DNA of 64,000 nucleotides from Lachnospiraceae bacterium (GCA_017619635.1 JAFZRZ010000032.1:1-64000); one strand, 5' to 3'; numbered from the stretch's first letter, positions 8,760 through 27,696 are shown. Program-made: numbers and translations. The notes: generated by a model from the letters alone, not told the origin.

Positions 8760-8788
8760 TTGATGTCGATCAAATTGGAGATGTGTTT

Positions 8789-11164
8789 ATGAATCTGCGG
8801 ATAATAAAGCGACCTTTAGCAATCTTATTACTGATGTCTTTTATTGTTCCAGCTGTTATTCTGGCTTCAGCATATTATAGGATTGGAATTTACCCGGGAG
8901 GCACGAACACTGTTTTGGTGGCGGATTTGCAGGCGCTATATATGCCGTTTTGGGCTTCTCTCAGGTATTTAGGTGAATCCGATAACTCTATATTCCTGAC
9001 AATGTCAGGTGCTTTGGGAAATAATTTTGTAGCGTATGCATGTTATGGGGCTTTTGCTCCTTTGACGTGGATGACGGTTTTGTTTCCGTTGGAACAATTG
9101 CCCGATGTCATATATTATCTCATACTCGTAAAGATAGGTATGTGTGGCGCAGGTTTTTGTTATTACCTTTGGTATACATATCCTACTAGACGTCACTTAA
9201 CATCTATATTTCTCCTTTCATGCTGTTATGCGCTTATGTCATATAATGTGGGATACTCTGTAAACCCCATGTGGCTTGATGCTGTTCTTATGCTTCCATG
9301 GATATTAGTTGGTATAGAACGCATTTTGAACGGAGAAAAACCGATACTTTTTATCACAGCTGTTTTTATCAGCATGCTGTGCAATTATTATATCACAGCC
9401 ATGTCAGCCATATTTTCTATAGGATATTTGTTTATAAGGCTATCAGAGAATAGAGCGTGGAGATTAAAAACTATACTGCGATATATTCTATATGCATTGT
9501 TGGGAGCAGGTATGTCTGCGCCTGTTGTCTTACCTGCTGTATTAGGACTTATAGGTGGGAAGATAGGCAATGGCTCAAGATCTTTAGAACGGCTTTTTCG
9601 TTATAAGCTTTTAGATTTATTACTTCAATTCATTTCGGGCAGATATGATACATTACGTGATGATGGACTACCATTGATATTCTGTGGCACCGGTACATTA
9701 GTATTAGTGCTGTTTTATTTTATTAAATCTAAACATAGTTGGAAGATTAAATTTGCATGGGCGGGTTTTATTCTGTTTTACGTATTTGCGATGTGTTTTA
9801 TTCCGTTGGACAGGGTAATGCATGGATTCAAAGAAACCGTATACTATGAGGCAAGATACTCTTTTTCGCTTAGTTGCTTATTGTTAATTATGGCATATAG
9901 AGGTGTAGACAGCATATCTGATGATTTGGAGACTTTATCAATAGTAAGATTTTTGAAAATAGTATCAATAGTGTTTGTTATATCAGAACTGTATATGAAC
10001 AGTGCTATATTGCTTACTGGAATTAGTAAAGAAATGAATTATTATACTCGCTTAGGGTATGATTCGGAACTGAAAAGTAGAAAAGAACTACTTACGTATA
10101 TAAATGACGATGGCTTTTATAGAATTTCTGATTATTTTGGATATACAGGAAATGATGGGGCTTGGCTGAACTATAATGGTGTAGGTTATTTTTCTTCATG
10201 TCACAATTTGAATGTTATGGATTTCTTTGGTGCCATGGGAGAAAGGCAGACATATCATGCTATGGCCAATGGAATCAGATCACCATTAGAGGAATCACTT
10301 ATTGGCGCAAAGTATATTGTGGCATGTGAAGAAGTTGGCGAAGCGGGGGAGGATGGTAATGAAAGTGAGATTTATACAATAAAAGAAAACGATGATGCGT
10401 TGTCATTAGGATATATGGTAAATCTGCGTGATGATAATATAAAACAGTTTGGAAATAATGCGTTTGAAAATCAGAATAGTGTGATAAAAGATCTCACTGG
10501 CAAAGAAGGCGAAGTTTTTGTTGAACTCATTCCATCTCGCTGCGAAAAGACTGAGACCGATGAACATGTTTGGATATATGAATACTTGGTTGAAGCCAAA
10601 GAAGATGCCACGGTTTGGGTGTATTTTGAAAGATCTGATATTTCGCTTCCAGATACCAAACTCGTTGTTGATGGAATAGACATGGGAGAATACATATACA
10701 AAGATTTCAATTCTCCATATATGATATATTTGGGAAGGTATGAAAAAGGAAAGCTAATTGAGATAGAGACTCTATCTAATGCAGATAACGGGAAACTTCA
10801 TATAGACTATTTTGATGAGAATGTATATAGAGAACTGATAAGTGAGCTTGCTTCCAACCAATTGGATGTGACCTATCATTCTGCTGGACATTTTTGCGGA
10901 ACAATAGACGTCGAAGAAGATGGCATAATGTTGTTGTCGCTGCCGGCTATTGATGGATGGAGGGTAAAAGTCGATGGAAAGAACGCTGATTTGGGAGAAT
11001 ATAGGAATGTAATGCTTACTGTTAACTTGGCGTCTGGAAAACATGATATAGATATTCGCTTTGTACCACCGGGATTATATTTTGGTGTGTTTTTGGGGGG
11101 ATTATGCTTGCTGATATTTGTAATATTTATAATCCGTTCGAAGGAAAATTGCGTTTACATATGA
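8789..11164 (+). CDS. YfhO-family membrane protein (GT-C-like), copy A
   Basis: A 791-residue protein with about 12 hydrophobic segments and a large extracytoplasmic C-terminal domain that ends in DGWRVKVDGK and a last membrane helix. That layout is the YfhO family. In Bacillus subtilis YfhO is linked to glycosylation of lipoteichoic acid, so transfer of a lipid-linked sugar on the outer membrane face is the likely role. The N-terminal YPGGTNTVLVADLQALYMPF contains the acidic loop typical of GT-C enzymes. ATG 8789 is preferred over GTG 8783 because TTGGAG (8775-8780) is properly spaced only for the ATG. It is closely similar to the third copy at 13887. Confidence 0.85.
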   Translation: MNLRIIKRPLAILLLMSFIVPAVILASAYYRIGIYPGGTNTVLVADLQALYMPFWASLRYLGESDNSIFLTMSGALGNNFVAYACYGAFAPLTWMTVLFPLEQLPDVIYYLILVKIGMCGAGFCYYLWYTYPTRRHLTSIFLLSCCYALMSYNVGYSVNPMWLDAVLMLPWILVGIERILNGEKPILFITAVFISMLCNYYITAMSAIFSIGYLFIRLSENRAWRLKTILRYILYALLGAGMSAPVVLPAVLGLIGGKIGNGSRSLERLFRYKLLDLLLQFISGRYDTLRDDGLPLIFCGTGTLVLVLFYFIKSKHSWKIKFAWAGFILFYVFAMCFIPLDRVMHGFKETVYYEARYSFSLSCLLLIMAYRGVDSISDDLETLSIVRFLKIVSIVFVISELYMNSAILLTGISKEMNYYTRLGYDSELKSRKELLTYINDDGFYRISDYFGYTGNDGAWLNYNGVGYFSSCHNLNVMDFFGAMGERQTYHAMANGIRSPLEESLIGAKYIVACEEVGEAGEDGNESEIYTIKENDDALSLGYMVNLRDDNIKQFGNNAFENQNSVIKDLTGKEGEVFVELIPSRCEKTETDEHVWIYEYLVEAKEDATVWVYFERSDISLPDTKLVVDGIDMGEYIYKDFNSPYMIYLGRYEKGKLIEIETLSNADNGKLHIDYFDENVYRELISELASNQLDVTYHSAGHFCGTIDVEEDGIMLLSLPAIDGWRVKVDGKNADLGEYRNVMLTVNLASGKHDIDIRFVPPGLYFGVFLGGLCLLIFVIFIIRSKENCVYI

Positions 11165-11279
11165 GATAACGTAAGTAGCGGGATATCTGTATTGAGATTA
11201 TTACATACATGTATAGGTGACGTTTGGGAATATACTTGGAATGATGGATATATTTGAGGGGTAAAAAGGACATATACTC

Positions 11280-13871
11280 ATGAAAAAAAAGATGAATAAA
11301 TATTCGCTAATAAGTTTTATCTTATCTATGACTTGCATGAGTATGATTATCTTTGTGCGGGGCATTTTGTCTGATGGAACCTATTGCATAATCGATGGGG
11401 ATCTTTTCTACCAGTACTTACCAGCAATTAAGAATATGTGCAGGGATGTTATTCGTGGGGAAAGCTTTGACTATTCTTGGAATATATCTCTTGGATTGAA
11501 TACTTCGTTGTTCAATGCATATTATTCAGTGTACAATCCTTTCAATATTTTATTTTTGCTGGATGGATTCCTAAGTGATGTTCAGATATTAGAAATGATA
11601 ATTATTCTGAAAACAGGTATTGCAGCACTATCATTTCAGGTTTTTTTGAAAAATGCTCATAAAATCGATGACTATTCTTCAGTATTTTTTTCAATTCTTT
11701 ATTCACTGTGTTCATTTCAGGTTTACTACAACATCATAAATATTATTTGGCTGGATGCTATGTTTGTTCTGCCTTTTATATTGCTGGGTGTAAGAGAACT
11801 GTTTAAAACAAAACGTTTGACTAAACTGTTGTTGGGGTTTAGCTATATTTTTATTACACAGTTTTACATGGGCTATGTCATTGGTGTTTTCAGTTTTGGT
11901 TATTTTATATTGCTGTGTTGTTTTGAGTATCGTGAGCGTTTGACGGGTAAAAGAGGTATTATTCAATACTGCCTTAGATACGTTATGGCGTTGCTCTTAT
12001 CGGTTGGTATATCAGCATTTGTATGGATGCCGGCACTCATGTTTTTCGTAAACAATCGTATTATAGTTCCTGAAGAACTGGTGGAAAGACGTATTTCTGT
12101 TATGGATTTTTGCACTCGATTATTATGGGGACAGAATTGGAATGAAAATGGAACCTTGCCTAATGTATATTGTGGCATAGCAGTAATACTTATGATCATG
12201 CTGTTTTTTGTCTTCAGACAGATTGAGGCAAAATACAAGATTGTATATGGCATCTTACTTTTTTTCACAATAATATCTTGCTTTGTAGATGGTTTATATA
12301 TGATGTGGCATGGATTTGATAATCCTGATGGATGTCCATACAGGTTTTCATTTCTTATTAGTTTCTTGCTTTGTATAATGGCTGCGCTTGCTTTTGAGAA
12401 TCTGCAGGATAACAGCTTGAGGGTGATAATTGTACCATTTGCTATTTGTTTGGTATTTTGTTTGCTTTGCCTGGTTGTTAATCATGGAAACAAGCAGTGG
12501 ATATATTTAACAAATATCGTTCTTCTTTGTTTATGGGAAAGTTTGATACTGTCATACTTTTGGTTTAAAGATAGGAAGGAAGTGCTTTTAAGGAGCATGC
12601 TTATTCTTGCGGTTATAGAAATAATAGGGAATGGATGTGTTTGTTACAATGGGACCACGACCAAACTCTTATACAATGTATGGGATTATGGAACAAATGA
12701 GATCAGAGACAAACTGTCTGATGATGAAGATATATACAGAGTTAATAGTTTATACGATATAGGCTTAAATACAGGTACTTGTAAGGACTTTAATTCGGTT
12801 GGATATTTTTATAGTCCGGAGTATATCTATACCAGACATGCGTTGGGAGATTTGGGGATGTATAATTCACCCAAATTAATGTTGAATTTTGGGCTCACAC
12901 CTGTAACAAAGATGATACTTGGCGTCCGTTATGATGTCTATGGAGCGTTTGAAGGGATAATAAATGGCGAATCTGATTTTCACTCAAAAGTCATTAAAAA
13001 TGATAATACGTTAAGCTTGGGATTTATGGTTGAAGGAGCACCTGAGGATTATTATTTCTATGAAGACAGTTCGTTTGCAAACAATAATTCAATGATAAAT
13101 GTGATGACAGGTGAAAATATTGAAGTGTTTAGCCCTGTCAACGCAGATTGCATAAGTATATATAATAATGGAGTAAATATAGGAAATGCTCAATCGGGTA
13201 ACGGATATCGTATATACAGAGATATAGATACTGATGAAACAGATCCCATGCTTCAGATCAGTGTAGATGCTAAAGAAGTATATGCATATTTTTATAATGA
13301 ATCATCTTCTAAGAGTGATCTGTACGATTATTTTTTGTTGGATGGAGGAGTGGAAAATGCTGTTAAGAGATGGGGGGATATAGATGTTTCATATATAAAA
13401 GAGCTTGAGTATGATAATAACACATCAGTATTAGATATATTGCCTCAGGGAGATATTTCTGAAGCTTCGTTTGAAAACGTTTTTTTTGCGACTTTAGATA
13501 TGGATAAGCTTGTTGAAGCTTATGATGTACTAAAAGAAAATCAGCTTTGTATCTCCGAATATAGAGATGATTTTATTAAGGCAAATGTAATGGTTCCCGA
13601 AAACAAAAATCTATTGTTCACAAGCATACCATATGACAAAGGCTGGCGAGTTAAAGTGGATGGTGTGGATTGCGTTACCTGCCCTATATTAAATGATGGT
13701 TTTTTGTCTGTTACGATAACTGAACCGGGTATACATGAAGTAGAGTTTATGTTTGAGGCCGAAGGAAGTAAAATTGGGAAATGTATAAGTCTGATTAGTT
13801 TTTTTGGGGTTATTTTTGCTGTTATCCTTCGTAGGTATAAACATTGTCTAAGAACGCAGTATGAACATTAA
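11280..13871 (+). CDS. YfhO-family membrane protein, divergent copy B
   Basis: An 863-residue polytopic protein with the same plan as its neighbours. A first helix is followed by an acidic loop (IIDGDLFYQYLPAI), multiple helices occupy residues 60-430, an extracytoplasmic domain follows, and the GWRVKVDG signature near residue 785 precedes a final helix. It has FSWN-like SWNISLGLNTSL and HGFDNPDGCPYRFSF segments where the A copies have HGFKET. Sequence divergence suggests a different substrate or donor. ATG 11280 is preceded by AAAAGGA. The 115-base gap before it holds no clear promoter. Confidence 0.83.
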   Translation: MKKKMNKYSLISFILSMTCMSMIIFVRGILSDGTYCIIDGDLFYQYLPAIKNMCRDVIRGESFDYSWNISLGLNTSLFNAYYSVYNPFNILFLLDGFLSDVQILEMIIILKTGIAALSFQVFLKNAHKIDDYSSVFFSILYSLCSFQVYYNIINIIWLDAMFVLPFILLGVRELFKTKRLTKLLLGFSYIFITQFYMGYVIGVFSFGYFILLCCFEYRERLTGKRGIIQYCLRYVMALLLSVGISAFVWMPALMFFVNNRIIVPEELVERRISVMDFCTRLLWGQNWNENGTLPNVYCGIAVILMIMLFFVFRQIEAKYKIVYGILLFFTIISCFVDGLYMMWHGFDNPDGCPYRFSFLISFLLCIMAALAFENLQDNSLRVIIVPFAICLVFCLLCLVVNHGNKQWIYLTNIVLLCLWESLILSYFWFKDRKEVLLRSMLILAVIEIIGNGCVCYNGTTTKLLYNVWDYGTNEIRDKLSDDEDIYRVNSLYDIGLNTGTCKDFNSVGYFYSPEYIYTRHALGDLGMYNSPKLMLNFGLTPVTKMILGVRYDVYGAFEGIINGESDFHSKVIKNDNTLSLGFMVEGAPEDYYFYEDSSFANNNSMINVMTGENIEVFSPVNADCISIYNNGVNIGNAQSGNGYRIYRDIDTDETDPMLQISVDAKEVYAYFYNESSSKSDLYDYFLLDGGVENAVKRWGDIDVSYIKELEYDNNTSVLDILPQGDISEASFENVFFATLDMDKLVEAYDVLKENQLCISEYRDDFIKANVMVPENKNLLFTSIPYDKGWRVKVDGVDCVTCPILNDGFLSVTITEPGIHEVEFMFEAEGSKIGKCISLISFFGVIFAVILRRYKHCLRTQYEH

Positions 13872-13886
13872 TATAAATATGAAGTT

Positions 13887-16301
13887 ATGAGAAAAGATAT
13901 AAAAGAAAAAACAATCCTTTGTTTTATAGCTGGAATAATTTCGATTTTTATTCTTGCTTTAGTCTATTATTTTATAGGAATATATCCGGGTGGACCAATC
14001 ACTATACTGACATATGATATGAAATCTCAGTATATGCCTTTTTTTGCGTCCCTCAGATACATCTGTGACTCGACCACTGATAGTTCTTTGTTTTTGAATA
14101 TGTCTGGATCATTGGCGAATAATTTTATGGGGTTTGCATACTATATTTATTCGCCTATGACCTGGATGACAACTCTTTTTTCGTTGGAGAAGTTACCTGA
14201 CGCCATATATTTTCTTACGTTAGTAAGGATAGGTTTATGCGGAGTGGGCTTTTGTTACCACCTTTATTATACATATCCGGAAAAAAGACATAAATTATCA
14301 ATAATTCTCCTTGCGTGTTGCTATGCGCTGATGGCATATAATATTGGCTATTCTGTCAACATCATGTGGTTGGATGCGGTGCTTATGCTTCCTTGGATAC
14401 TGACTGGAATAGAGAAGTGCCTTAGGGAAGAACGACCAGGCATGTTTATAGTATCTGTTTTTCTGACTTTGGTATTAAATTATTACATATCTTTTATGTC
14501 AGGGATCTTTGCAATTGGATATCTTTTTATTCGTATGTTTGAGCTGAACAAGTGGAATGCAAAAAGATTTGGTGGATTTGTTATTTATTCCTTGGTTGGA
14601 ATTGGAACAGCTATGCCTGTTTTGTTACCTGGAGTACTTGCTTTATCAAATGGAAGGATGGAGGAAGACAAATATCCTGTTGTAAGGATGTTTAGATATA
14701 GCTTTATTGATGTTTTGTGTCAATTGACATCAGGCAAGTATGATACTGTCATGGACGATGGCCTTCCGTTTATCTTTTGTGGGTCGCTGACGATTGTGTT
14801 AGTGTTAGTGTATTTTGCCAAGAGCAAAGACGATGTTATCAGCAAATTGAGATGGTTAATACTAATTGCATTCTATCTGTTTTCTATGTGCTTTGTACCA
14901 TTAGACAGGATCATGCACGGATTTCAAGAAACAACATGTTTTGAAGTCAGATATGGTTTTGCTTTTAGCTGCATGCTTTTAATACTGGCATACAGAGGTG
15001 TTGACTGCGTAGTGAAGGTGATAAAGGACAAAACATATCAGAAGTACATAAAAACTCTGTTTGCCATATTTGTTCTTGCAGAACTGTATATGAACAGTTC
15101 TATATTGATATCTGAACTGAATGTTGAACTACACTATGGAACACGTGTAGATTATGATAGGATCCTAAATTCCAAGCAAAAGCTTCTGGGGAGTATAGAA
15201 GATACAGGTTTTTACAGAGTATCAGAGAATACAGCTTATACATACAACGATGCAGCGTGGCTGGGTTATAATGGCTTTGGATATTTTTCTTCATGTTATA
15301 ACCTTAAAGTCATGAACTTTCTGGGATCTATGGGGGAGAATCAATCACATCACATTTTGAGAGATGGATTAAGGACTCCTGTGGAAGAGACACTTCTAGG
15401 TGCGAAGTATAAGATTTTGTATGCTGAGAAACCTATATATGGCAAACTCATTGCTTATGATGGGCTTTATTCGTTATATGAGGATGATAATGCACTGTCT
15501 TTGGGGTATATGTCAGAATTGAAGGATGGTGGAACAAGTCAAGAATTGAGTGGGAATGCTTTTGAAAATCAGAATATTTGGATTAAAGAGCTGACGGGAA
15601 GAACAGAAGATGTGTTTCGAGAGTTACAACATGATGAACAGATCTCCTATAGTTCTGATGGCTTGGTACAGCATGATGTTTTTAGCGTGATGATATCGAA
15701 AAAAGCAAATATATGGGCGTATTTTGAGATTGATAATAACAGACAATTGCCAGATGAAAAAAAAACACTCAAAGCGGATAATGAAATGTTTTTGAATGGT
15801 GAAAGTATAGGTGAATTCATAGATCCTCATAATGAATCGGCTTATATGGTATTCTTGGGTGAACATGAATCTGGAGAAAAGCTGAATCTTGAAATCTTAA
15901 GTTCAAAATACTGTGGTATTATGCATCTTTTTTCTTTTGATGAGGGAGTATATCATAATTGCATGAATTCTTTATCAAAGAATCAGCTTTATATAACTGA
16001 GCATTCTAATGGGCATTTTGAAGGGACAATTGAATCTGGTAAGTGTGGAAGTATGCTACTTACATTACCATTTATGGATGGATGGAATATTAAGGTTGAT
16101 GGTAAAAAGGTTGAATATAGTGATTATAGGGAAACTATGATAGTTGTTCCTTTGGATGCAGGATTGCATAATATAGAGATAGCTTTTTTCCCTCCGGGAC
16201 TAATAACCGGGTTGATCATTATGCTCGTTTCTGTATGTTTGGGAATTGTGCTCGCACTAAGAAAAAGGATAAGCATTTTAACGAAAATGATGCTCATTTG
16301 A
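13887..16301 (+). CDS. YfhO-family membrane protein (GT-C-like), copy A'
   Basis: An 804-residue protein clearly paralogous to the one at 8789. Shared stretches include IYPGG near residue 30, YMPF-ASLRY, MWLDAVLMLPWIL near residue 160, PLDRIMHGF-ET near residue 345, and NGFGYFSSCYNL near 475. The extracytoplasmic C-terminal part carries DGWNIKVDGKKV, the family's end signature, before the last helix. It starts 15 bases after the previous stop. With two other YfhO proteins and two O-antigen-ligase-like proteins beside it, a role in glycosylating a surface polymer or protein is inferred. Confidence 0.85.
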   Translation: MRKDIKEKTILCFIAGIISIFILALVYYFIGIYPGGPITILTYDMKSQYMPFFASLRYICDSTTDSSLFLNMSGSLANNFMGFAYYIYSPMTWMTTLFSLEKLPDAIYFLTLVRIGLCGVGFCYHLYYTYPEKRHKLSIILLACCYALMAYNIGYSVNIMWLDAVLMLPWILTGIEKCLREERPGMFIVSVFLTLVLNYYISFMSGIFAIGYLFIRMFELNKWNAKRFGGFVIYSLVGIGTAMPVLLPGVLALSNGRMEEDKYPVVRMFRYSFIDVLCQLTSGKYDTVMDDGLPFIFCGSLTIVLVLVYFAKSKDDVISKLRWLILIAFYLFSMCFVPLDRIMHGFQETTCFEVRYGFAFSCMLLILAYRGVDCVVKVIKDKTYQKYIKTLFAIFVLAELYMNSSILISELNVELHYGTRVDYDRILNSKQKLLGSIEDTGFYRVSENTAYTYNDAAWLGYNGFGYFSSCYNLKVMNFLGSMGENQSHHILRDGLRTPVEETLLGAKYKILYAEKPIYGKLIAYDGLYSLYEDDNALSLGYMSELKDGGTSQELSGNAFENQNIWIKELTGRTEDVFRELQHDEQISYSSDGLVQHDVFSVMISKKANIWAYFEIDNNRQLPDEKKTLKADNEMFLNGESIGEFIDPHNESAYMVFLGEHESGEKLNLEILSSKYCGIMHLFSFDEGVYHNCMNSLSKNQLYITEHSNGHFEGTIESGKCGSMLLTLPFMDGWNIKVDGKKVEYSDYRETMIVVPLDAGLHNIEIAFFPPGLITGLIIMLVSVCLGIVLALRKRISILTKMMLI

Positions 16302-16470: not shown

Positions 16471-17889
16471 ATGGAAGAAAAAGGAAAAAGGATATTATTA
16501 GTAAGTATTTTGGGGAGAATCGGGAAAGAAGGATTTGAGGAGATCTCTGAGTGGCTTTTGCGTTTACTTTGTGTAACGCCGTTAATCACCGGCATAATAA
16601 ATTATATTATGTTGTTGGACATACCTTCATATGATCCTTATCTATATAATTACAGGTGCATAATTGTTTCAAGTATTGGTTTTATCCTTATGACTGTCTT
16701 TATCTTGTTCTTTATAATAGGGAAGATAATGCATGAACATTTGGGAATAAAGGATATATTGTGGAAGGTAAAATGTAGGGAACCCTGGTTACTCTGGTGG
16801 ATCGCACTATTGGTATGGGGGATTATTACGGTAGTTGCTTCAGCTTATCCTAAATCAGCTTTGCTTGGCGGAACAATTCTTTATTCTGGATATATTACAC
16901 ATATATATATGATATGTGTGATGATATGTGCATATCTTTTGAATGATGATGGACGAAGAAGAGTTATTAATACATATGTTGTAGTATCTGACATATTAGC
17001 GATCATAATGATATCATTTAATTATGATCTTCCATTCTTTAATAGTTTTTCGGGTTATGCCGGAGTGGCTACATTTACTAATTCAAATCATTATGGGTAT
17101 TATTTAGCAATGGCGATCCCCTGTTTGGCAGGTTTGTTTTTACAAAAATATGATGAAGCTGATCAGGGAAAAGAAAAAAGTAATACTTCATGTATAGTAT
17201 TTCTTGTTTCATATATAATTCATATGCAGGCTATGGTTATAAATGACTGCATGGGAGCTTTTTTGGGAGTCTTTTTTTCGCTGGTGTTTTTAACTGTATT
17301 CTGGATTATAAGACGAAGAAAGTTCAAATTAGCCTATTTTATGCCTGTGATAATTCTTGCGGTTATGGTTTATCTTAGTTATGTTGGCGTTATCACATCA
17401 GTGCTGGGGAAAACAACAGGTACAAGTCTGCGAGTGCTTTTTTATGATATCTTCCGTGTCGCAAAGAAAAGTGAAGGATATGAAGAGGCGGGAACAAATC
17501 GAATTTATCTGTGGAAGGAAACAATCGCGGCTATAAAAAGAAACCCTGTCTTTGGGTATGGACCGGATATTATGCTTGATAAAAACGGGAATATGTGTGT
17601 GAGTATAACCCCACATAATGAGTTTTTGGAGTGTGCATTATATATGGGTATTCCGGGTGCGATAATGTATCTGGGAGGCTTGATATCACTGTTTGTTAAT
17701 AGACTGAAAAATCTGAAAAGACTTCCTGATTATATGATAACAGCAGCCTGTGCAGTGATAGGATATCAGATCAGTGCTTTTTTTGGAGTAAGGAAATTTC
17801 ATATTGTGCCATATATGTTTATGTTTTTGGGAATGATAATAATGAAAGAAAGTAAAGGAACTGAAGATGAAGAAACTAAGAGAGTGTAA
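16471..17889 (+). CDS. O-antigen ligase/polymerase-like (Wzy_C) membrane protein 1
   Basis: A 472-residue polytopic protein. The Wzy_C signature is in the C-terminal half: RIYLWKETIAA, then PVFGYGPDIM and TPHNEFLECALYMGIPG, with the His-Asn-Glu motif in the large periplasm-side loop that members use for transfer of glycan from lipid carrier. I place the start at ATG 16471 because AAGGA (16456-16460) precedes it by ten bases, while ATG 16447 has no ribosome site. The end overlaps the next gene by 23 bases. Members act as O-antigen ligases, polymerases or pilin O-oligosaccharyltransferases; position next to prepilin genes makes the last worth testing. Confidence 0.8.
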   Translation: MEEKGKRILLVSILGRIGKEGFEEISEWLLRLLCVTPLITGIINYIMLLDIPSYDPYLYNYRCIIVSSIGFILMTVFILFFIIGKIMHEHLGIKDILWKVKCREPWLLWWIALLVWGIITVVASAYPKSALLGGTILYSGYITHIYMICVMICAYLLNDDGRRRVINTYVVVSDILAIIMISFNYDLPFFNSFSGYAGVATFTNSNHYGYYLAMAIPCLAGLFLQKYDEADQGKEKSNTSCIVFLVSYIIHMQAMVINDCMGAFLGVFFSLVFLTVFWIIRRRKFKLAYFMPVIILAVMVYLSYVGVITSVLGKTTGTSLRVLFYDIFRVAKKSEGYEEAGTNRIYLWKETIAAIKRNPVFGYGPDIMLDKNGNMCVSITPHNEFLECALYMGIPGAIMYLGGLISLFVNRLKNLKRLPDYMITAACAVIGYQISAFFGVRKFHIVPYMFMFLGMIIMKESKGTEDEETKRV

Positions 17890-19312
17890 GAATTTTGGGG
17901 AATTATATGAAACTATCGGCGAAGCGAATTTTGAGAATGTGGCTTACATATTGACAATCATGCTGATAGTGGCACCTGTTATTGCGGGAATAATCAATTA
18001 TTTTATGATACAGGATTCTTATAACTATATAACGCCATATAATGCATACGAATACAATTATAAGTGTATGCCAATATGGAATATAGTCTTCATGCTAATG
18101 TGTTTTTGGTGCGTTCTCTATTATGTTGGAAAGATTTCTTACAATAAATGTGGCGTAAAAGGTGCTTTTTTTAGCATTAAAAAGGAGCAAAAATGGCTGA
18201 TTTGGTGGATGCTTCTTCTGGTTTGGACTGTAATACCAGTTATTTTTTCACCTGATGTTCAGGGGGCGTTTCTTGGAACTAGTCAATTGGCCAGCGGATA
18301 TATATCACACTTTTATACTCTGGGTGTAATGGGGTGTGTGAACATGGTATCAAATCGCAAAAAAAAGGAAGAGATTGTATGGGCTTTCATCATTATAATG
18401 GATGTTCTTTCTATTATTATGATCGCATATGAATATGATGTTCCTTTTTTGAGGCTGTTCACAGCTACGTCAGGAGTGTCTGTATATACAAACAGTAATC
18501 ATTTTGGATATATGCTAACGATGGTCTGTGTCGCAATAACTGGAATATATTACAAACTTTTATCATCGAATGAAGATAAAAAGCGAAGAAAGATTGCGTT
18601 CTGCCTGCTTTCATTTGCTATTCAGGCATTTTCGATAATTATAAACGATACGTTGGGATCATATCTTGCGATAGTATTTGCTTTGATCGTAATTCCATTT
18701 ATATGGCTGGCAAATAAGAAAAAGATAAGAATAACATGTTTTATCCCACATTTCATTTTGCTTATATTGACTATGTTGAGTTATTATGGAGCGTTTCCTA
18801 CAAAACTGGGAAGTACGATTGGTCAAAGCTTGGTTGTATTTGTTTTTGACTTATTAAAAGTAAAGCAGCAAACTGAAGGGTATAGACATGCGGGTACAGA
18901 TAGAATGGGATTGTGGATAGATACAGTAAAGAAAATATCTGAAAGTCCAATAGTGGGATACGGGCCGGGTGTTATTTCATATAGAAACGGTAATTATATT
19001 CTTTGGGATACGCCACACAACGAATTTTTGGAGTGTGCGCTCTTTATGGGAATTCCCGGACTGGTTTTATACGTTGGCGGCCTTATTGCATTGTGTATAG
19101 ATAAATGCAGGAAGATAAAAAGCCTGACAACATCGGAATTGATAGCAGGTGGCGTTATCATAGGCTATCTGGCTAGTTCTTTTTTTGGAGTACGAAAGTA
19201 TAATACGGTTTGCTACTTTTTTATGTTTATTGGATTGTTGGTTGGAAAACAGAGACAAAACTATAAAAATGAAGACCGTTGTTTAAGTGATGAAGGAAGC
19301 GAAGAAAAATAG
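17867..19312 (+). CDS. O-antigen ligase/polymerase-like (Wzy_C) membrane protein 2
   Basis: A 481-residue paralogue of the preceding gene, with 10-12 hydrophobic segments. The C-terminal signature is RMGLWIDTVKK, IVGYGPGVI, and TPHNEFLECALFMGIPG, almost identical to its neighbour's. The N-terminus LRECKNFGELYETIGEAN is also alignable with the first copy. AAAGGAA precedes the ATG inside the upstream gene, so translation is likely coupled. Two tandem copies imply either two acceptors (for example a polymer and a pilin) or one recent duplication. The first prepilin gene starts 147 bases downstream. Confidence 0.8.
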   Translation: MKKLRECKNFGELYETIGEANFENVAYILTIMLIVAPVIAGIINYFMIQDSYNYITPYNAYEYNYKCMPIWNIVFMLMCFWCVLYYVGKISYNKCGVKGAFFSIKKEQKWLIWWMLLLVWTVIPVIFSPDVQGAFLGTSQLASGYISHFYTLGVMGCVNMVSNRKKKEEIVWAFIIIMDVLSIIMIAYEYDVPFLRLFTATSGVSVYTNSNHFGYMLTMVCVAITGIYYKLLSSNEDKKRRKIAFCLLSFAIQAFSIIINDTLGSYLAIVFALIVIPFIWLANKKKIRITCFIPHFILLILTMLSYYGAFPTKLGSTIGQSLVVFVFDLLKVKQQTEGYRHAGTDRMGLWIDTVKKISESPIVGYGPGVISYRNGNYILWDTPHNEFLECALFMGIPGLVLYVGGLIALCIDKCRKIKSLTTSELIAGGVIIGYLASSFFGVRKYNTVCYFFMFIGLLVGKQRQNYKNEDRCLSDEGSEEK

Positions 19313-19321
19313 AGCAGAGAT

Positions 19322-19375
19322 AAAACTTAAGAAAAATTAAGATTTAGACATGAAATTTAAAAAAAATTAAGTTTT
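19322..19375 (+). other. AT-rich inverted repeat between ligase and pilus genes
   Basis: AAAACTTAA (19322-19330) can pair with TTAAGTTTT (19367-19375), followed by further T residues, and an inner CTTAA-GAAAAA-TTAAG repeat is present. It could be a weak terminator separating the ligase genes from the pilus operon, but the stem has almost no G-C pairs. The 15-mer TTAAGAAAAATTAAG here also occurs at 228-242. No confident promoter was found in the remaining gap to 19459. Confidence 0.35.
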
Positions 19376-19459
19376 TTTTAATAAATATATTGTAATATGA
19401 TAAATGATGTGTTAACATAAAAACCAAGATGTATAGTATGTTCATATAGAGGTCATACA

Positions 19460-20509
19460 ATGAGAATGAGTAAAAAATTTAACGACGGAATGTCACTTGT
19501 TGAGCTGATAGCAGTAATAGCGATAGTTGCAACTCTTACCGGGCTGATAGTACCGCAGTTTACCAGGTATATCAATCAGAAGAGAGAAACGGCGTGCGTT
19601 GAGAACAGAGATGCTGTCGTCAATATATGCGAAAAGATGGTTTACAGCGGAGTTCCGCTTAGCCAAATCCAGGCGTGTGTTAATGAGATAGTTACATCCG
19701 GAAGTGCGACAACTCATTCAATTCCTGCAGAATATGAAGAAGCATTGAAAAGACATTGGATTTGCTCCGATGGCGGTGCTATGAGTGTGACTGTTAACAC
19801 AACAACAGGCATAATCACGTGCCAATGCGGAGTGCATGGAACAAAAGATGTTGTGGCAGATGTATCTACTTGGGGAGGCGTTGGAGATATGACCACCGAT
19901 CCGAGTTTCGATGTGCCTACGGTGCCGGTATCCCCCGCTTTGCCTACAACTGTACCGCCAACCCCGTCGCCTACAACATATCCCACATCCGTACCGTCTA
20001 ATTCGTATTGGCCTTATCTTGATGATTATAGATGGGACGCGGCAGGACGTTACAGTGGTTCTTATCTGTACGTAAATGCTCCCTCGGGTAAGTTTGCCAT
20101 GAGAAATTCTTCTGGTGTTACTACTTATTATGTAATGATAGATAAGAACGGTGACGGAAAGTGTAAGATTACATATGAGCATGCATTTGATCCTTCCTAT
20201 TATCTTGCGGGATCGGATTCTGAATGCGTTATCGCTACAAATGGTACAGAGTATACATATGCATCGATTTCGGAGGCGGCTCAAACAGTAGCGAGCTTAA
20301 AGAAGCATAGCGATGATCCACACCAAACGGCAGACACTGAAGAGTATCTTATCAGTGGTGGTACGATATTCAATAACGGAACTCATCGTTACGTGTATTT
20401 CCACCAAGGCCAGGAATATGCCAAATTGCCCACGGTTAATAATGTTGGAAGTAACACAAACAAGTTTGGCAACTGGTATCTTATGAAAGATACTGATGAA
20501 GTGGATTAA
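19460..20509 (+). CDS. Type IV prepilin-like protein with Ser/Thr/Pro linker
   Basis: A 349-residue prepilin. The short basic leader ends at Gly10 and is followed by MSLVELIAVIAIVATLTGLI, so cleavage should be Gly10|Met11 with the conserved Glu at +5 (Glu15). The pilin helix runs to about residue 50, followed by a globular part with several Cys. Residues about 152-181 form a linker rich in Pro, Thr, Ser and Val (PTVPVSPALPTTVPPTPSPT), and an extra C-terminal domain of 165 residues follows. A linker like this is unusual for a pilin and looks like an O-glycosylation target. It is the first gene of the pilus cluster, 24 bases before the ATPase gene. Confidence 0.85.
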   Translation: MRMSKKFNDGMSLVELIAVIAIVATLTGLIVPQFTRYINQKRETACVENRDAVVNICEKMVYSGVPLSQIQACVNEIVTSGSATTHSIPAEYEEALKRHWICSDGGAMSVTVNTTTGIITCQCGVHGTKDVVADVSTWGGVGDMTTDPSFDVPTVPVSPALPTTVPPTPSPTTYPTSVPSNSYWPYLDDYRWDAAGRYSGSYLYVNAPSGKFAMRNSSGVTTYYVMIDKNGDGKCKITYEHAFDPSYYLAGSDSECVIATNGTEYTYASISEAAQTVASLKKHSDDPHQTADTEEYLISGGTIFNNGTHRYVYFHQGQEYAKLPTVNNVGSNTNKFGNWYLMKDTDEVD

Positions 20510-20533: not shown

Positions 20534-22249
20534 TTGAGCATGATAACATTGCAGCGCAAAAAAATGCGCTTGGGCGATTTACTTATAAAAGATGGAACCA
20601 TCACTCCGGAACAGTTGGAGATGGGATTGCGCAAACAGCGCGAAAGTGGCAAGAAGCTGGGAGAGGCATTAGTAGACCTTGGTGTTACTACTGATGATTC
20701 CATAGCTGTTGCGCTGGCGAATCAGCTTGGCTATAACATGGTCAACCTTTCTGAGGTTGAAGTAGATAAAAAGCTTTTTGAGATGTACCCGCAGCTAACG
20801 CCTGCCATGCTTAAAAAGTATAATTGCATACCTTATGAGATAGCGGCAGATTCTGCAAACATCTTGCATGTAGCCATGGCTGACCCCATGGATATGATGG
20901 CTATGGATGATATTGGTATCATCACCAACATGCAAGTTGAACCCGTGGTTTCTACTACTGCGGATATATCTAGAGCGATAGACAAGGTCTTTGGACACAA
21001 GGACGTTGACTCTAAACTCCAATCATATGCGGATGAAAGAAAAGCCAAAGAGGCGGCAAATTCCGAAGAAGAAGCAAATGTAGAGATTGAGAACTCGCCG
21101 ATCGTTCAGCTTGTTAAGAGTATGATAGAACAAGCTGTTAGACAGAGGACTTCGGATATTCACATCGAACCCATGGAAAGCGGCGTTCGAATTCGTTACA
21201 GAATAGATGGTACTTTGTTTGTAAGAAGCCATTATTCACCACAGCTGTTACCTGCTATCGTGGCCCGTATAAAGATTATTGGTGGAATGGATATATCTGA
21301 GAAGAGAAAACCGCAAGACGGTCGTATCACTCAGGTAGTTGATAGACAGGAATATGATATCCGTGTATCTGTTCTTCCTACTGTATACGGCGAAAAGATA
21401 GTTATGAGACTTACTTCCAAGACTGGTCTTACTCGAGATAAAGCCGATCTTGGATTTAATGAGAAAGAATTAAAAGTTTTTGATCACATTCTTTCTAATC
21501 CTCATGGTATATTGTTGGTTACGGGGCCTACTGGTTCGGGAAAGTCGACCACACTATATACAGCACTTTCGGAATTGAATTCAACCGAGGTTAATATTAT
21601 CACGGTAGAAGATCCTGTTGAGGCAAATATAGATGGTATCAATCAGGTTCAAACAAATAATAAAGCTGGCTTGACATTTGCTTCTGCTCTTAGGTCTATC
21701 TTACGTCAGGACCCTGACATCATAATGATAGGTGAGATTCGAGATAATGAGACTGCATCGATAGCTGTTCAGGCTTCTATTACCGGCCATATGGTTGTTA
21801 GTACGTTACATACTAACTCGGCAGCAAGTACGGTAACGCGTCTTGCGGATATGGGCATCGAACCATATCTTATAGCAGACTCTGTTGTCGGAATTATGGC
21901 GCAACGTCTTGTGAGAAGACTTTGCCCTGCTTGCAAAAAAGAATATGAGCCGACAGAAGAAGAGAAAGAGCTTTTGAACATAAAACCTGGCGACACATAT
22001 ACGATATTTGGTCCTAATGGTTGCAAGATGTGTGATGATACCGGATATAAAGGACGTATCGGTGTATATGAGATTATGGAATTGTCTCATGAATTGAAGC
22101 TTGTTATATCCAAAGGTGGCACGGCAGATGACATCAAGGAACAGGCGCTTAAAGATGGCATGAGCACTCTGAGAATGAGCGCCACAAGATATGTACTGAA
22201 CGGTATAACATCTATCAGCGAGATGAAAAAAGTCTCGTTTGATGAATAG
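20534..22249 (+). CDS. pilB: Type IV pilus assembly ATPase PilB/GspE
   Basis: A 571-residue cytoplasmic hexameric ATPase that powers pilin extraction and pilus growth. The N-terminal MshEN/T2SSE_N domain occupies roughly residues 1-150. Walker A is GPTGSGKST at about 331-339, followed by the Asp box (VEDPVE) and Walker B in DPDIIMIGEIRD. The His box is STLHTNSA, and the zinc-binding tetracysteine is CPAC near 465 with CKMC near 498. Both TTG 20534 and ATG 20540 fit the GAGGAAA site; TTG is used here. The Glu-containing N-domain and Zn motif fit extension rather than retraction ATPases. Confidence 0.95.
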   Translation: MSMITLQRKKMRLGDLLIKDGTITPEQLEMGLRKQRESGKKLGEALVDLGVTTDDSIAVALANQLGYNMVNLSEVEVDKKLFEMYPQLTPAMLKKYNCIPYEIAADSANILHVAMADPMDMMAMDDIGIITNMQVEPVVSTTADISRAIDKVFGHKDVDSKLQSYADERKAKEAANSEEEANVEIENSPIVQLVKSMIEQAVRQRTSDIHIEPMESGVRIRYRIDGTLFVRSHYSPQLLPAIVARIKIIGGMDISEKRKPQDGRITQVVDRQEYDIRVSVLPTVYGEKIVMRLTSKTGLTRDKADLGFNEKELKVFDHILSNPHGILLVTGPTGSGKSTTLYTALSELNSTEVNIITVEDPVEANIDGINQVQTNNKAGLTFASALRSILRQDPDIIMIGEIRDNETASIAVQASITGHMVVSTLHTNSAASTVTRLADMGIEPYLIADSVVGIMAQRLVRRLCPACKKEYEPTEEEKELLNIKPGDTYTIFGPNGCKMCDDTGYKGRIGVYEIMELSHELKLVISKGGTADDIKEQALKDGMSTLRMSATRYVLNGITSISEMKKVSFDE

Positions 22250-22318: not shown

Positions 22319-23533
22319 ATGGCAGATTTTAGCTACGTTGCCTTATCGGCAAACGGCAAAGAGGTAAAAGGTACTATTGTGGCTGAAAATCCTGATTCAG
22401 CCAGAGCCCAGTTGAAAAATCAAGGTTTGGTTGTGACAAACGTTAAGGAGCAGGGACTTCTTGATAAAGAGATTTCGATTGGACCAAAAAAGAAAATAAC
22501 ACCAAGAGAACTTGCAGTATTCTGCAGACAGTTTGTATCAATGTCTAAAGCGGGTGTAACGATCATCGAATGTTTGAGCCTACTTAGAGAACAGACTGAG
22601 AATCCGAGACTTGCGCAGGCAATTAGAGATGTTCAGACCAGCGTAGAAAAGGGTGAAACTCTTGCTTATGGATTGGAGGCACAGCCTGATGTATTTCCAT
22701 CACTGATGTGTACTACTATTGCAGCAGGTGAAGCATCAGGTTCTTTGGAAGTCAGTTTGGAGAGGATGGCTGATCAGTTTGAAAAGTCGGCAAAAACACA
22801 GGCTCTTGTTAAGAAAGCTATGATTTATCCTGTGGTTGTTGCTTGCGTTGCTGTTGGCGTTGTTATATTGATGCTGATAAAGGTTATTCCTGCATACACT
22901 GACATGTTTAATGACCTTGGGACTGATCTTCCTAAGATCACAAAAATGGTTGTAGCTGCAAGTGATTTCCTAATGGCGTATTGGTTTATAATTGTTCCTG
23001 TTGTCATTGCTATCGTAGTTGGAATAAAAACATGGTTCAAGACTGACTCGGGTAAGCTTGCGTGGAGTACTTTTCAGTTAAAGGTACCGGCTATTAAGAA
23101 TCTGGTTGTAAAGAGTGCTTGTTCCTCGCTTGCAAGAACACTTTCAACATTGCTTGCAGCCGGTGTTGGACTTACCGATGCGGTTGGTATAGTTGCTGAT
23201 ACAATGCAGAACGTACTTATTCAGGATGCGTTAAGATTTTCGAGAGATGAGGTTATGAAGGGCGTTCCACTTTCAGAGCCGATAGAGGACAGCGGACTCT
23301 TCCCGCCTATGCTTTATCATATGATGAGGATTGGTGAAGAAGCTGGTAACTCAGAAGAGATGCTTACAAAACTTGCTGATTATTACGATGAAGAAGTGGA
23401 GATGGCAACCCAGTCGCTCATGGCATTGATGGAGCCAGCTATCATACTTGTGCTTGCGGGTGTTGTTGGCGTACTTATTGGAGCTATAATGGCACCTATG
23501 TTGGCGATGTACCAGGCAATGGATAATCTGTAA
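22319..23533 (+). CDS. pilC: Type IV pilus inner-membrane platform protein PilC/GspF
   Basis: A 404-residue membrane protein, the normal family length. It has two GspF domains: one around residues 65-190 (FCRQFVSMSKAGVTIIECL, then MYP-type segment MIYPVVVACVAVGVV) and a second at 270-395 (SLARTLSTLLAAGVGLTDAV, then PAIILVLAGVVGVLIGAIM). Three to four helices anchor it. PilC couples PilB's ATPase to pilin insertion. AGGAG precedes ATG 22319. It lies between the ATPase and the major-type prepilin, the normal order. Confidence 0.94.
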   Translation: MADFSYVALSANGKEVKGTIVAENPDSARAQLKNQGLVVTNVKEQGLLDKEISIGPKKKITPRELAVFCRQFVSMSKAGVTIIECLSLLREQTENPRLAQAIRDVQTSVEKGETLAYGLEAQPDVFPSLMCTTIAAGEASGSLEVSLERMADQFEKSAKTQALVKKAMIYPVVVACVAVGVVILMLIKVIPAYTDMFNDLGTDLPKITKMVVAASDFLMAYWFIIVPVVIAIVVGIKTWFKTDSGKLAWSTFQLKVPAIKNLVVKSACSSLARTLSTLLAAGVGLTDAVGIVADTMQNVLIQDALRFSRDEVMKGVPLSEPIEDSGLFPPMLYHMMRIGEEAGNSEEMLTKLADYYDEEVEMATQSLMALMEPAIILVLAGVVGVLIGAIMAPMLAMYQAMDNL

Positions 23534-23622
23534 AATAACATGAATTAAACATCGGATTGTAGGGGTTCGATGCTTAAGATAAAAAGATGAAAACTAAACA
23601 AAAGAAAAGGAGAAAATTCATT

Positions 23623-24030
23623 ATGAAGAAAATGAACAACAAAGGTTTTTCACTCGTTGAGTTGATCGTTGTTATCGCGATCATGGCAGTTCTGGTTGGT
23701 GTACTTGCACCCCAGTTCATCAAGTATGTAGAGAGCTCAAGAAGATCAACAGATATCTCTAACGCTCAGAATATTCAGTCAGCTGTTCTTGCTGATATCG
23801 CTGATGGCCTTCTCAGTGGAACAGGTTCTGCAACCTTGACAGTTACAGCTGGAACACCTACAGCTATCGGAGAAGTTCCGAAGGTTAAGGGTAATAAGAC
23901 TGGTGGTGCTACACCTGGTTCAACATCTTGGTCTGTAGAATATAACGCTGCTTCTGGTACATGTGCTGTTGGATTAGGATCATTCGTTCTTACAGATTCG
24001 GACGGCGCTTCTAACTACAAGCAGCCCTAA
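23623..24030 (+). CDS. pilA: Major-type type IV prepilin
   Basis: A 135-residue prepilin, the shortest and simplest in the cluster, so the best candidate for the fibre subunit. The leader MKKMNNKG is cleaved before Phe9, followed by SLVELIVVIAIMAVLVGVL with Glu at +5 (Glu13). After the helix a small Thr/Gly/Ala-rich domain follows with only one Cys (residue 120 region). ATG 23623 is chosen over ATG 23587 because AAGGAG (23607-23612) is ten bases upstream and the resulting leader has the usual length. Codons are less AT-biased than in the minor prepilins, consistent with high expression. The prepilin peptidase follows by 31 bases. Confidence 0.9.
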   Translation: MKKMNNKGFSLVELIVVIAIMAVLVGVLAPQFIKYVESSRRSTDISNAQNIQSAVLADIADGLLSGTGSATLTVTAGTPTAIGEVPKVKGNKTGGATPGSTSWSVEYNAASGTCAVGLGSFVLTDSDGASNYKQP

Positions 24031-24061: not shown

Positions 24062-24826
24062 ATGTTAGATATAACAACTATTATGATATACATACTAATA
24101 TTAATATATGGAATATTGGTTGGTAGTTTCTTGAATGTATGTGTCTATCGCATACCTAAGAAAGAGAATATCGCAATAATCAGATCTCACTGCATGACAT
24201 GCAATCATCAGCTGAAGTGGTATGATAACATACCACTTCTCAGCTGGCTGATGCTAAGGGGCAAGTGCAGATATTGCAAAGCTCCGATATCTCCACAGTA
24301 TCCAATCATAGAAGCTTCTAACGGCTTGCTGTGGTTGCTTGTGGCAATAATCAGAGGGTTGAGCGTAGATACCCTACTCTACGCGTTACTTTTCTCAGCT
24401 TTATTGACATTAAGCGTAATTGATTTTAGAACTTATGAGATTCCTGCAGGAATCAACATATTCATACTGGCACTGGGGCTGGTCATGACAGTATATCATT
24501 ATACTGATTGGGTTGACCACGTGATCGGCTTCTTCGTTGTCAGTATACCATTGTATATCATCATTATCGTGACGAATGGTCGCGGTATCGGCGGTGGTGA
24601 TATGAAGCTGATGGCAACAGCGGGATTGCTGATTGGCTGGAAGCTTGTGGTATTGGCTTTCGCTCTGGGTTGCATAATAGGTGCGCCTGTTCACGTTATT
24701 AGAATGAAGATGTCAGGTGCAGACAGGGTGCTGGCTATGGGGCCGTACTTAAGTATTGGCATATTTATATCGGTGTTATGGGGAGAACAACTTATAAGTT
24801 GGTATCTTAATATGGCCGGTATCTGA
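24062..24826 (+). CDS. pilD: Prepilin peptidase PilD
   Basis: A 254-residue polytopic aspartyl protease (family A24A) that cuts prepilin leaders after Gly and N-methylates the new N-terminus. The N-terminal cytoplasmic methylase domain has Cys44-x-x-Cys47 and Cys69-x-x-Cys72. The two active aspartates are Asp121 in VIDFRTYEIP and Asp180 in GIGGGDMKLMA. Presence of both pairs of Cys indicates the bifunctional form. The prepilins around it are its expected substrates. Confidence 0.95.
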   Translation: MLDITTIMIYILILIYGILVGSFLNVCVYRIPKKENIAIIRSHCMTCNHQLKWYDNIPLLSWLMLRGKCRYCKAPISPQYPIIEASNGLLWLLVAIIRGLSVDTLLYALLFSALLTLSVIDFRTYEIPAGINIFILALGLVMTVYHYTDWVDHVIGFFVVSIPLYIIIIVTNGRGIGGGDMKLMATAGLLIGWKLVVLAFALGCIIGAPVHVIRMKMSGADRVLAMGPYLSIGIFISVLWGEQLISWYLNMAGI

Positions 24827-25064: not shown

Positions 25065-26876
25065 ATGGCAGAGAGAGTATTAAGTATCGAGATGGGAAGC
25101 TCGCTCACTAAGGTCATTGAGACTGATTTAGGTGCAAAGAGCCCCAAGATCTACAACAGCTTTGTGGTTACCACGCCCGAAGGAATGTTGAAGGATGGTA
25201 TCGTGGATACCGATGACGAATTCGTCAACACTTTCTTGCGTATGCTTACTGTTAAGCGTATCAAGACCAGAAGAGCAGTATTTACAATCTCTTCTTCTAA
25301 GATTGCAACAAGAGAGGCGCGTATTCCTTATTGTAAGGAGAGTAAGATCAAGGATTTGGTTAGAACCAACTTGAATGACTACTTTCCTATTGATGGCAGT
25401 CAGTACATGTTCTCACACAGTGTTATAGGTGTTGAGTACGAATCAAAAGAAGAGAAGACAGAAACAATTGAGGATAAGAAGGAAGAGAGCAAAGCACCCC
25501 TTACCAAAGCTGAACAGGTTAAGGCTGAACTTGATTCTGGTACAGCGAAAGTTGCCGGAAAGCAGAAGAAGGGTAAGGCGATTGGATATAAGTTACTTCT
25601 TCTTGCAGCTCCTAAACAGTTAGTACAGAGTTATGAAAAACTTGCACAGGCAATAGGCCTTTCAATAGCTGCTCTTGACTACAATGGTAATTCAATATTC
25701 CAGGCAGCAAAAGACGAGTGTCGCGATGGCGTTCAACTCATTGTGAAAGTTGATGAGAGAGGAACTCTTCTCATGGTTCTTGAAGATGGCGCGACAACTC
25801 TGAATAGAACAATTCCGTATGGTGTTGACGAAGCAATCAAGTCTCTGATGCAGACTGATATCTTTGGTGACACAAAAGATTATGAAAAGGCTGTGAATAT
25901 AGCAAGATCTAAGCAAGTTCTTATGCCTTCCTTTGAAGAGTGCGATACAGAGGATCCTAAGGAAGAATTTGCAGTAAGGAGTGAGATCACTCTTACACTC
26001 AGATCTCTTGCTGGTGGTATTATTAGAGTAATAGATTATTATAATGCTAACCATGGTCAGAGACCTGTAGAGAAGATGCTTATTACGGGACTTGGTGCAG
26101 ATTTTACAGGTCTTGATGTCCTTCTTACTAGTGAAATCGGACTTAAGATTAGAGATATTACCAGAGTAGCCGGCGTTGACATCGATAGGATATTTAGAGG
26201 AAGTACCTATAGTGAGTTTGTTGGATGTATCGGTGCAGCACTTTCACCTATAGGATTTTACCCTGAGAGCGCTGAAGAAGAGGATCGAAAGGGCAGAGAC
26301 GTCAATGCGACTGGTAATGCTATAGGTTGGGCTGTGCTTGCTGCAGGTGTTATTGCATCTATAGCTATGATAGCTGTAACGATGGTTCCTTATATGCAGG
26401 AACAGGAGTTGAATGAGAGCTATAAGGCTACAATCAATGAACTTCAGCCTGTATATGATATGTATCTTGATTATCTTGAGTTAGAGAACGACGTGAAATA
26501 TGTTGAGGCTCTTGATTCTGCTACGATTAATAGAAATGAGAATCTGGTTAAGTTTTTAGGCGCATTAGAAAATCAGATGCCGAGCACATTTATGCTTAAC
26601 AGTTTGACAACAAGCCGTACTACGGTTACGCTTGATGCTACTGTTGCCACAAAAGAGGAAGCTGCATATGCGTTAAGCAAACTTAAGCAGGTTGACGGAT
26701 TCATTACAGCAGATACTACATCTGTAACAGAGATGATTGTTGAAGAAACAGGAGAAATCAAGTATTCTTTCGTGACTGAAATGATATATGCTCCTACTGA
26801 ACTTGCAGTGGAAGATGAAGTGACTTATGAAGAACCAGCTGCAGAGGTGGCTGAAGAAGTAGCTGAAGAACAGTAA
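25065..26876 (+). CDS. pilM: Fused PilM-PilN pilus assembly protein
   Basis: A 603-residue protein, much longer than PilM (about 350). The N-terminal part (to about 410) is the actin-like PilM: LSIEMGSSLTKVIE at the phosphate loop, and LITGLGADFTGLD plus SEFVGCIGAALSP near the C-terminal end of the fold. A Lys/Glu-rich insertion sits at about 128-172. A membrane helix (about 419-440) follows, then a coiled stretch and a PilN-like periplasmic domain (MPSTFMLNSLTTSRTTVTLD...) to about 570, and an acidic tail. In most systems PilM binds the cytoplasmic tail of a separate PilN; here both are one chain. PilO is the next gene, and no separate pilN is present, which supports the fusion. Confidence 0.85.
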   Translation: MAERVLSIEMGSSLTKVIETDLGAKSPKIYNSFVVTTPEGMLKDGIVDTDDEFVNTFLRMLTVKRIKTRRAVFTISSSKIATREARIPYCKESKIKDLVRTNLNDYFPIDGSQYMFSHSVIGVEYESKEEKTETIEDKKEESKAPLTKAEQVKAELDSGTAKVAGKQKKGKAIGYKLLLLAAPKQLVQSYEKLAQAIGLSIAALDYNGNSIFQAAKDECRDGVQLIVKVDERGTLLMVLEDGATTLNRTIPYGVDEAIKSLMQTDIFGDTKDYEKAVNIARSKQVLMPSFEECDTEDPKEEFAVRSEITLTLRSLAGGIIRVIDYYNANHGQRPVEKMLITGLGADFTGLDVLLTSEIGLKIRDITRVAGVDIDRIFRGSTYSEFVGCIGAALSPIGFYPESAEEEDRKGRDVNATGNAIGWAVLAAGVIASIAMIAVTMVPYMQEQELNESYKATINELQPVYDMYLDYLELENDVKYVEALDSATINRNENLVKFLGALENQMPSTFMLNSLTTSRTTVTLDATVATKEEAAYALSKLKQVDGFITADTTSVTEMIVEETGEIKYSFVTEMIYAPTELAVEDEVTYEEPAAEVAEEVAEEQ

Positions 26877-26889
26877 AGGGGGCGATATC

Positions 26890-27612
26890 ATGAAACTTGG
26901 AAGTAAAGAAAAGAATCTTATAAAAGGACTCATAGGTATAGTTCTTGCTGTTTTGGTATGGATGTTTGTTGCAAGCCCGATAAAGGATAAGAAGGAAGTG
27001 CTTGCTGCTGAGAATGCGGAACTTAAGGTTAAAAAAGAAGAATATGAAGCAGTTAATGCTCAAAAAGCAAAATATGAAGAAGGTATGACGGCTCTTCAGA
27101 ATGAAAGAGAAGAGTTGCTCGAAAACTATCCTTCAGGCATGATCACAGAAGATCGTATCATGTATTGGGCTAACATGGAGAGAGCTAATAGTGGTCAGCT
27201 TGCTCTTGAAAACATAGCAATGTCAAGCCTTCAGGAGGTTGTTGTTGAAACTGAGGCAACTGAGGGCGATGAAGAAGGGGCAACTCAGCTTCATCTCTAC
27301 AAAGCCCCTGTAAACTATACTTATAAAGCAACATATGATGGCTTGAAGGGAATGGTTGATTATGTGTTTGCTCAGAATGATAAGAAGAGTATCGAAGGTA
27401 TAATGGCCGCTTACAACGAGGAAACAGGCAATATCGAAGGTACCCTTGATATGAATATGTATTACATGGTTGGAACAGGAAAAGATCATATTCCTGCTAC
27501 AATCCCGAGTGTTCCTACTGGAGTTGTTAATCCTTATCATGCATCTAATACCAAGGTCATTACTGAAAGCGAATTGGCAATGGGGCTTGAACCGGATGTT
27601 GAAAGAGAATAA
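26890..27612 (+). CDS. pilO: PilO-like pilus alignment protein
   Basis: A 240-residue bitopic protein. A short basic N-terminus is followed by a helix (LIGIVLAVLVWMFVASPI), a coiled coil at about 35-80, and a small ferredoxin-like domain. That is the PilO plan: it pairs with PilN in the membrane to align the pilus machine. Sequence conservation is weak, so the call rests on plan and on being 13 bases after the PilM-PilN fusion. AAAGGGGG precedes the ATG. The gene ends with the acidic stretch LEPDVERE. Confidence 0.75.
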   Translation: MKLGSKEKNLIKGLIGIVLAVLVWMFVASPIKDKKEVLAAENAELKVKKEEYEAVNAQKAKYEEGMTALQNEREELLENYPSGMITEDRIMYWANMERANSGQLALENIAMSSLQEVVVETEATEGDEEGATQLHLYKAPVNYTYKATYDGLKGMVDYVFAQNDKKSIEGIMAAYNEETGNIEGTLDMNMYYMVGTGKDHIPATIPSVPTGVVNPYHASNTKVITESELAMGLEPDVERE

Positions 27613-27631
27613 TTTGTAATAATGAAAATGT

Positions 27632-27661
27632 GCATAAGAGAGGTTGACGCCTCTCTTATGC
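27632..27661 (+). other. Perfect 12-bp hairpin before the PilV-like prepilin gene
   Basis: GCATAAGAGAGG (27632-27643), loop TTGACG, CCTCTCTTATGC (27650-27661): twelve perfect base pairs. No T-run follows (GGATATTTGAAG), so it is not a normal terminator. It lies 35 bases before the GTG start of the next gene and shows that the longer reading frame from 27622 is not the natural N-terminus. It may be an mRNA stabiliser, processing site or protein-binding element. Confidence 0.8.
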
Positions 27662-27696
27662 GGATATTTGAAGAAAGAGTATTTAGGAGTAGAAGC

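Follow-up and report, generated by a model that had tools for sequence, protein, structure and literature searches.

A tandem pair of Wzy_C genes beside a type IV pilus operon in a Lachnospiraceae bacterium: candidate pilus O-glycan ligases

Genes of the locus

The window is a 64,000-nucleotide stretch of DNA from a rumen Lachnospiraceae bacterium (GCA_017619635.1, JAFZRZ010000032.1:1-64000). Glycan-assembly genes, genes for YfhO-family membrane proteins, two Wzy_C genes and a type IV pilus operon are encoded one after another (Table 1), with the third YfhO gene (YfhO3) adjoining WzyC1. A rubrerythrin gene (8167-8730), 97% identical in the congener G019, lies inside the otherwise variable glycan region, and a 1766-residue DUF5057 protein (34593-39893) is encoded 3' of the pilus operon.

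Table 1. Features of the locus, in window coordinates
Feature	Position	Strand	Basis
Glycan-assembly genes: three GT2, HAD protein, Wzx-type flippase, surface-carbohydrate protein	262..7729	+	Pfam/NCBIfam
Wzx-type flippase	4911-6344	+	Pfam/NCBIfam
Surface-carbohydrate protein	6341-7729	+	Pfam/NCBIfam
Three YfhO-family (PgfM-like) GT-C membrane proteins	8783..16301	+	PF09586, 430-461 bits
WzyC1, polytopic Wzy_C/WaaL-fold ligase	16471..17889	+	PF04932, AF2 model, conserved His/Asn of PHNEF
WzyC2, tandem paralog of WzyC1	17867..19312	+	PF04932, 38% identity
Prepilin, 349 aa	19460..20509	+	TIGR02532 over cutoff; nine-congener alignment
Ser/Thr/Pro linker, prepilin residues 153-182	19916..20005	+	22/30 S/T/P
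PilB extension ATPase	20534..22249	+	T2SSE + MshEN
PilC platform protein	22319..23533	+	T2SSF
147-aa type IV pilin	23587..24030	+	N_methyl 34.5 bits
PilD prepilin peptidase	24062..24826	+	A24_N_bact + Peptidase_A24
PilM, PilN, more pilin-like genes	25065..34523	+	PilM_2 and T2SSM (both sub-cutoff), N_methyl matches

The 349-aa prepilin carries a type III signal (DGMSLVEL) and scores 17.7 with TIGR02532 (cutoff 16.3); Pfam N_methyl is sub-threshold on it (15.7 vs 21.2). The gene pilB starts 24 bp 3' of the prepilin gene and is followed by the genes for PilC, the 147-aa pilin, PilD, PilM and PilN. The type III signal and the adjacent pilB, pilC and pilD identify the 349-aa protein as a type IV pilin. 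The 147-aa protein is likely the major pilin. The gap of 147 bp between WzyC2 and the prepilin gene is AT-rich and includes one weak promoter-like site, and in the promoter/terminator scan the sites were no commoner than in shuffled sequence; co-transcription of the ligases with the prepilin is therefore not established.

The Wzy_C pair

As the original prediction stated, two tandem Wzy_C ORFs precede the prepilin and pilB. The scores with PF04932 (Wzy_C) are 62.7 bits for WzyC1 and 55.5 bits for WzyC2, both above the gathering cutoff of 31.7 bits. The two proteins, whose genes overlap by 23 bp, align across 457 aa at the identity given in Table 1 and are tandem paralogs in the Wzy_C/O-antigen ligase superfamily. 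The longest form of the WzyC1 ORF is 16447-17889; since an AAGGA at 16457 sits shortly upstream of ATG 16471, this codon is the more likely start than ATG 16447. In an alignment of four close genes, PHNE (His390 and Asn391, counted from ATG 16447) and Arg352 are kept.

The structure of WzyC1 was modeled with AlphaFold2 from a 13-homolog alignment (pLDDT 84, pTM 0.87). The top PDB match of the model in the fold search was the O-antigen ligase WaaL (7tpg; Z 21.9 over 352 residues), and FtsW and RodA came next, far below it, at Z of about 14 or less. The model thus has the WaaL-type GT-C fold; in the structural alignment with 7tpg the identity is 13%, and the window genes differ from WaaL in adjoining pilus genes. 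A profile match to WaaL was obtained with E = 4e-4. Single-sequence searches of PDB with WzyC1 and WzyC2 gave no matches, and an earlier WzyC1 model of poor quality, from a 4-row alignment, gave an empty fold search at E <= 0.001. The common fold alone says nothing on the function of WzyC1 and WzyC2.

The likeness to PglL raised in the original prediction did not extend to PglL-specific domains: PglL_A (PF15864) was absent from both proteins at E up to 10, in a search whose speed filters let few matches through beyond about 0.1, and Wzy_C_2 was found in neither by Pfam search. Neisseria PglL has in common with the window the Wzy_C core and a Wzx-type flippase and glycosyltransferases nearby; however, since PglL_A was undetected, the window proteins are not classified as PglL.

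In the tree, WzyC1 groups with the gene of G019 and WzyC2 with that of G001. These groupings suggest either that the duplication is older than these species and was followed by differential retention of the copies, or that copies were transferred between species. A second, broken WzyC1-like copy (87% identity over 195 residues), adjoining a YfhO3 remnant, is present in G019 about 28 kb from the intact one (L085 end and L101:1-2200; C78:57.7-60.2 kb). The pieces are remnants of a YfhO3-WzyC1 pair like that of G000, separated by a stop and an acyltransferase gene, and represent either decay or replacement of the cassette.

Wzy_C genes in other pilus loci

Close WzyC homologs were found in only two of 19 congeners, each upstream of a prepilin gene and pilB, and seven congeners have prepilin and pilus genes with no linked ligase. 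In several congeners without a linked Wzy_C gene, the slot 5' of the prepilin gene is occupied by a sulfatase/phosphoglycerol-transferase-type membrane protein (L093:488-2302, L092:1557-3347, L090:6586-8316, L128), and PF00884 is over cutoff in two of these proteins.

The WzyC subfamily is present in 11 of 397 genomes of the family, all of which have PilB, and PilB overall is found in 161/397. With the window's own genome left out, 10/10 subfamily genomes have PilB against 160/396 (p = 1e-4). Ligases in relatives without pili had been named as evidence against a pilus role; the family sample went the other way, with the subfamily only in PilB-bearing genomes. The ligase gene is directly 5' of pilB in G143 and G225, 2.2 kb from pilB in G126, and adjoins pilC in G096, where one or more sugar-related genes are also nearby. 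In G420, it stands alone between two prepilin genes on a small contig that also carries an IS110 transposase. Among more distant relatives, the ligase gene is immediately 5' of pilB in G220, and a Wzy_C pair with a polysaccharide deacetylase between its members is near pilB in G158 (L161:5136-8911). No glycan-assembly genes were recognized near the ligase in G225, G220, G420 and G126, and the nameable neighbors in G225, G420 and G220 are housekeeping or mobile genes.

Order- and class-level searches revealed such loci in families f22, f65, f77, f64 and f24. The ligase gene is 84 bp and 76 bp 3' of pilA in G521 and G827, 5' of two prepilin genes in G1099, 2.4 kb from pilD-pilB in G1019, and 6 kb from pilus genes in G499/G469. 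Around the two genes 3' of pilA, too, no polysaccharide genes were recognized. Around half of the family-level matches and 3/20 loci at the class level are pilus-linked; unlinked homologs include those of G342, G082, G255 and G707. Altogether, a ligase gene within about 6.5 kb of pilus genes was observed in about eight genera besides the genus of the window. Many of the compared genomes are drafts with mechanically called ORFs, and distances and linkage were judged by eye from ORF tables.

The association of ligase and pilus exceeds chance, and this part of the original prediction is upheld by the PilB comparison in the family and the pilA-ligase layouts in other families. In a set of 60 genomes with about 107 Wzy_C genes, six were located 8 kb or less from PilB, where 0.64 were expected. 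This set is mostly PilB-bearing and includes four genomes chosen owing to earlier matches, without which three genes remain near PilB (p = 0.018); therefore, the genome-level PilB test and the cross-family operons outweigh the proximity count. On the Wzy_C tree, the pilus-linked genes cluster (10 changes vs 16 in shuffles, 0/500), in part because near relatives have the linkage in common, and the clade of the window genes is 8/10 pilus-linked. The wider Wzy_C tree implies that ligases were recruited to pilus loci several times independently.

The acceptor and the function of the pair

The prepilin linker rich in Thr, Ser and Pro, described in the original prediction, is real and no accident of composition: its S/T/P content was reached in 0/20,000 shuffles of the prepilin sequence past residue 36. 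In an alignment of the prepilins of nine congeners, the linker is a variable insert, and the C-terminal domain is conserved (WPY..DD..W). T/P-rich linkers are found in the prepilins of G000, G019 and G017, of which G017 has no linked ligase despite its linker, only an unlinked Wzy_C gene elsewhere in the genome. The G001 prepilin has a weaker T/P linker though a ligase is present, and G012, G008, G002 and G004 have a List_Bact_rpt (PF09479) domain at this position. In other genera, the pilins encoded next to a ligase lack an S/T/P linker of this kind. Because the linker does not co-vary with the ligase, among congeners or at other loci, it was rejected as a diagnostic O-glycan acceptor; it is a possible acceptor that the sequences do not indicate, and the original view of it as the likely one was given up. 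The C-terminal Ser/Thr rule of TfpO was also considered and is unenriched, holding for 5/14 pilins with a linked ligase and 7/22 without; the window pilins end in TDEVD and YKQP, not in Ser/Thr. The prepilin encoded upstream of pilB is itself modular, with a variable linker slot between the conserved pilin part and the conserved C-terminal domain (L089, L090, L091, L092).

Thus, of the proposed pilus glycosylation system, the link between pilus and ligase is supported, and the linker as its acceptor is not. It is about an even chance that WzyC1 and WzyC2 are dedicated pilus O-glycan ligases, TfpO-like in genomic context. The glycan would be built on undecaprenyl diphosphate by the upstream glycosyltransferases and flipped by Wzx. 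On the outer side of the membrane, while the pilus is being assembled or earlier, one or both of the Wzy_C proteins would transfer it en bloc to a hydroxyl of a subunit of the pilus. Its acceptor may be the 349-aa prepilin or, alternatively, the 147-aa pilin; like the acceptor, the transfer to pilin, the glycan and the split of labor between WzyC1 and WzyC2 are putative.

TfpO and TfpM have neither PglL_A nor Wzy_C_2 and are often encoded next to their own pilin (PMC12645811). TfpO/PilO of Pseudomonas and Acinetobacter and TfpM of Moraxellaceae therefore resemble the window proteins, which are Wzy_C proteins without these domains, and the linkage to a pilin gene is seen in the window and its relatives, with pilA-ligase order in G521 and G827. 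They differ in that the window has a tandem pair in a nominally Gram-positive host, and because the C-terminal Ser/Thr acceptor rule is not seen, the window genes are not classed as TfpO. En bloc O-oligosaccharyltransferases have been called widespread across Gram-negative species (PMC12645811), and Schulz (2013) reported PglL homologs in 31 Gram-negative species, with 21 of 31 homologs adjoining pilin genes (PMC3643930).

En bloc O-glycosylation of pilins has so far been described only from Gram-negatives, and a literature search on TfpO with pilin in Firmicutes gave no match. A glycosylated Ruminococcus albus pilin was looked for in the literature as well and was not confirmed. That several families of Clostridia keep a ligase gene beside pilin genes suggests that these nominally Gram-positive bacteria may glycosylate their pili by such a route. 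Widespread, previously undescribed pilus-dedicated O-glycan ligases in Clostridia, without PglL domains, recruited several times and glycosylating type IV pilins en bloc, are plausible at a little under even chances. If they exist, pilin glycosylation would reach into the abundant commensals of gut and rumen through the Wzy_C genes of Clostridial pilin operons. These genes would also provide testable enzyme-acceptor pairs and bear on the ways in which such bacteria vary their pili against phage, host or substrate.

The foremost rival reading makes the pair Wzy polymerases, which polymerize, or attach to the wall, the repeat unit of the upstream wzx/GT/YfhO locus, this locus merely abutting the pilus operon. 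It has an appreciable probability, well short of even. Wzx and three GT2 enzymes are encoded upstream, and Firmicutes Wzy polymerases often match Wzy_C. No second Wzy-like polytopic protein was seen in the stretches read of the wzx clusters of G000, G019 and G001, with the window's own contig readable only from window position 1 onward, and wzyC adjoins YfhO3 in G000, in G019, and at the broken second copy of G019. The locus is also variable among congeners, whereas for pilB the closest congeners show 93-98% identity. However, the homologs of several genera reside in pilus loci where glycan-assembly genes were not recognized, and in the family sample the subfamily has no member outside the PilB-bearing genomes; both observations speak against a polymerase.

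Another rival assigns pilin glycosylation to a Pgf-like route, with YfhO-aided stepwise modification of Thr residues in the linker, and Wzy_C not as the pilin enzyme. In Streptococcus mutans, Pgf modifies Cnm; PgfM1 and PgfM2 with PgfS were proposed to act on its Thr-rich part, in a model without an O-oligosaccharyltransferase (PMC5856776). The window YfhO proteins belong to the same membrane-protein family as PgfM1/PgfM2, which are linked with the glycosylation of a Thr-rich protein of the cell surface, and three YfhO genes are directly 5' of the pair; YfhO3, however, scores 212.7 bits with the NCBIfam PgfM1 model, far below the equivalog cutoff of 1400. YfhO genes are enriched within 8 kb of PilB, where 8 of the 60 Lachnospiraceae genomes have them (8 loci against 0.66 expected), and GT-C enzymes appear to be drawn to pilus loci. 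On the other hand, YfhO also decorates teichoic acids, and G017, whose linker is among the two richest in T/P, lacks YfhO across the 12 kb of upstream sequence that was read. The Pgf-like route is improbable. The pilB-linked YfhO loci (window 8783-16301; L095, L099, L137, L144, L175) include giants of about 1500 residues.
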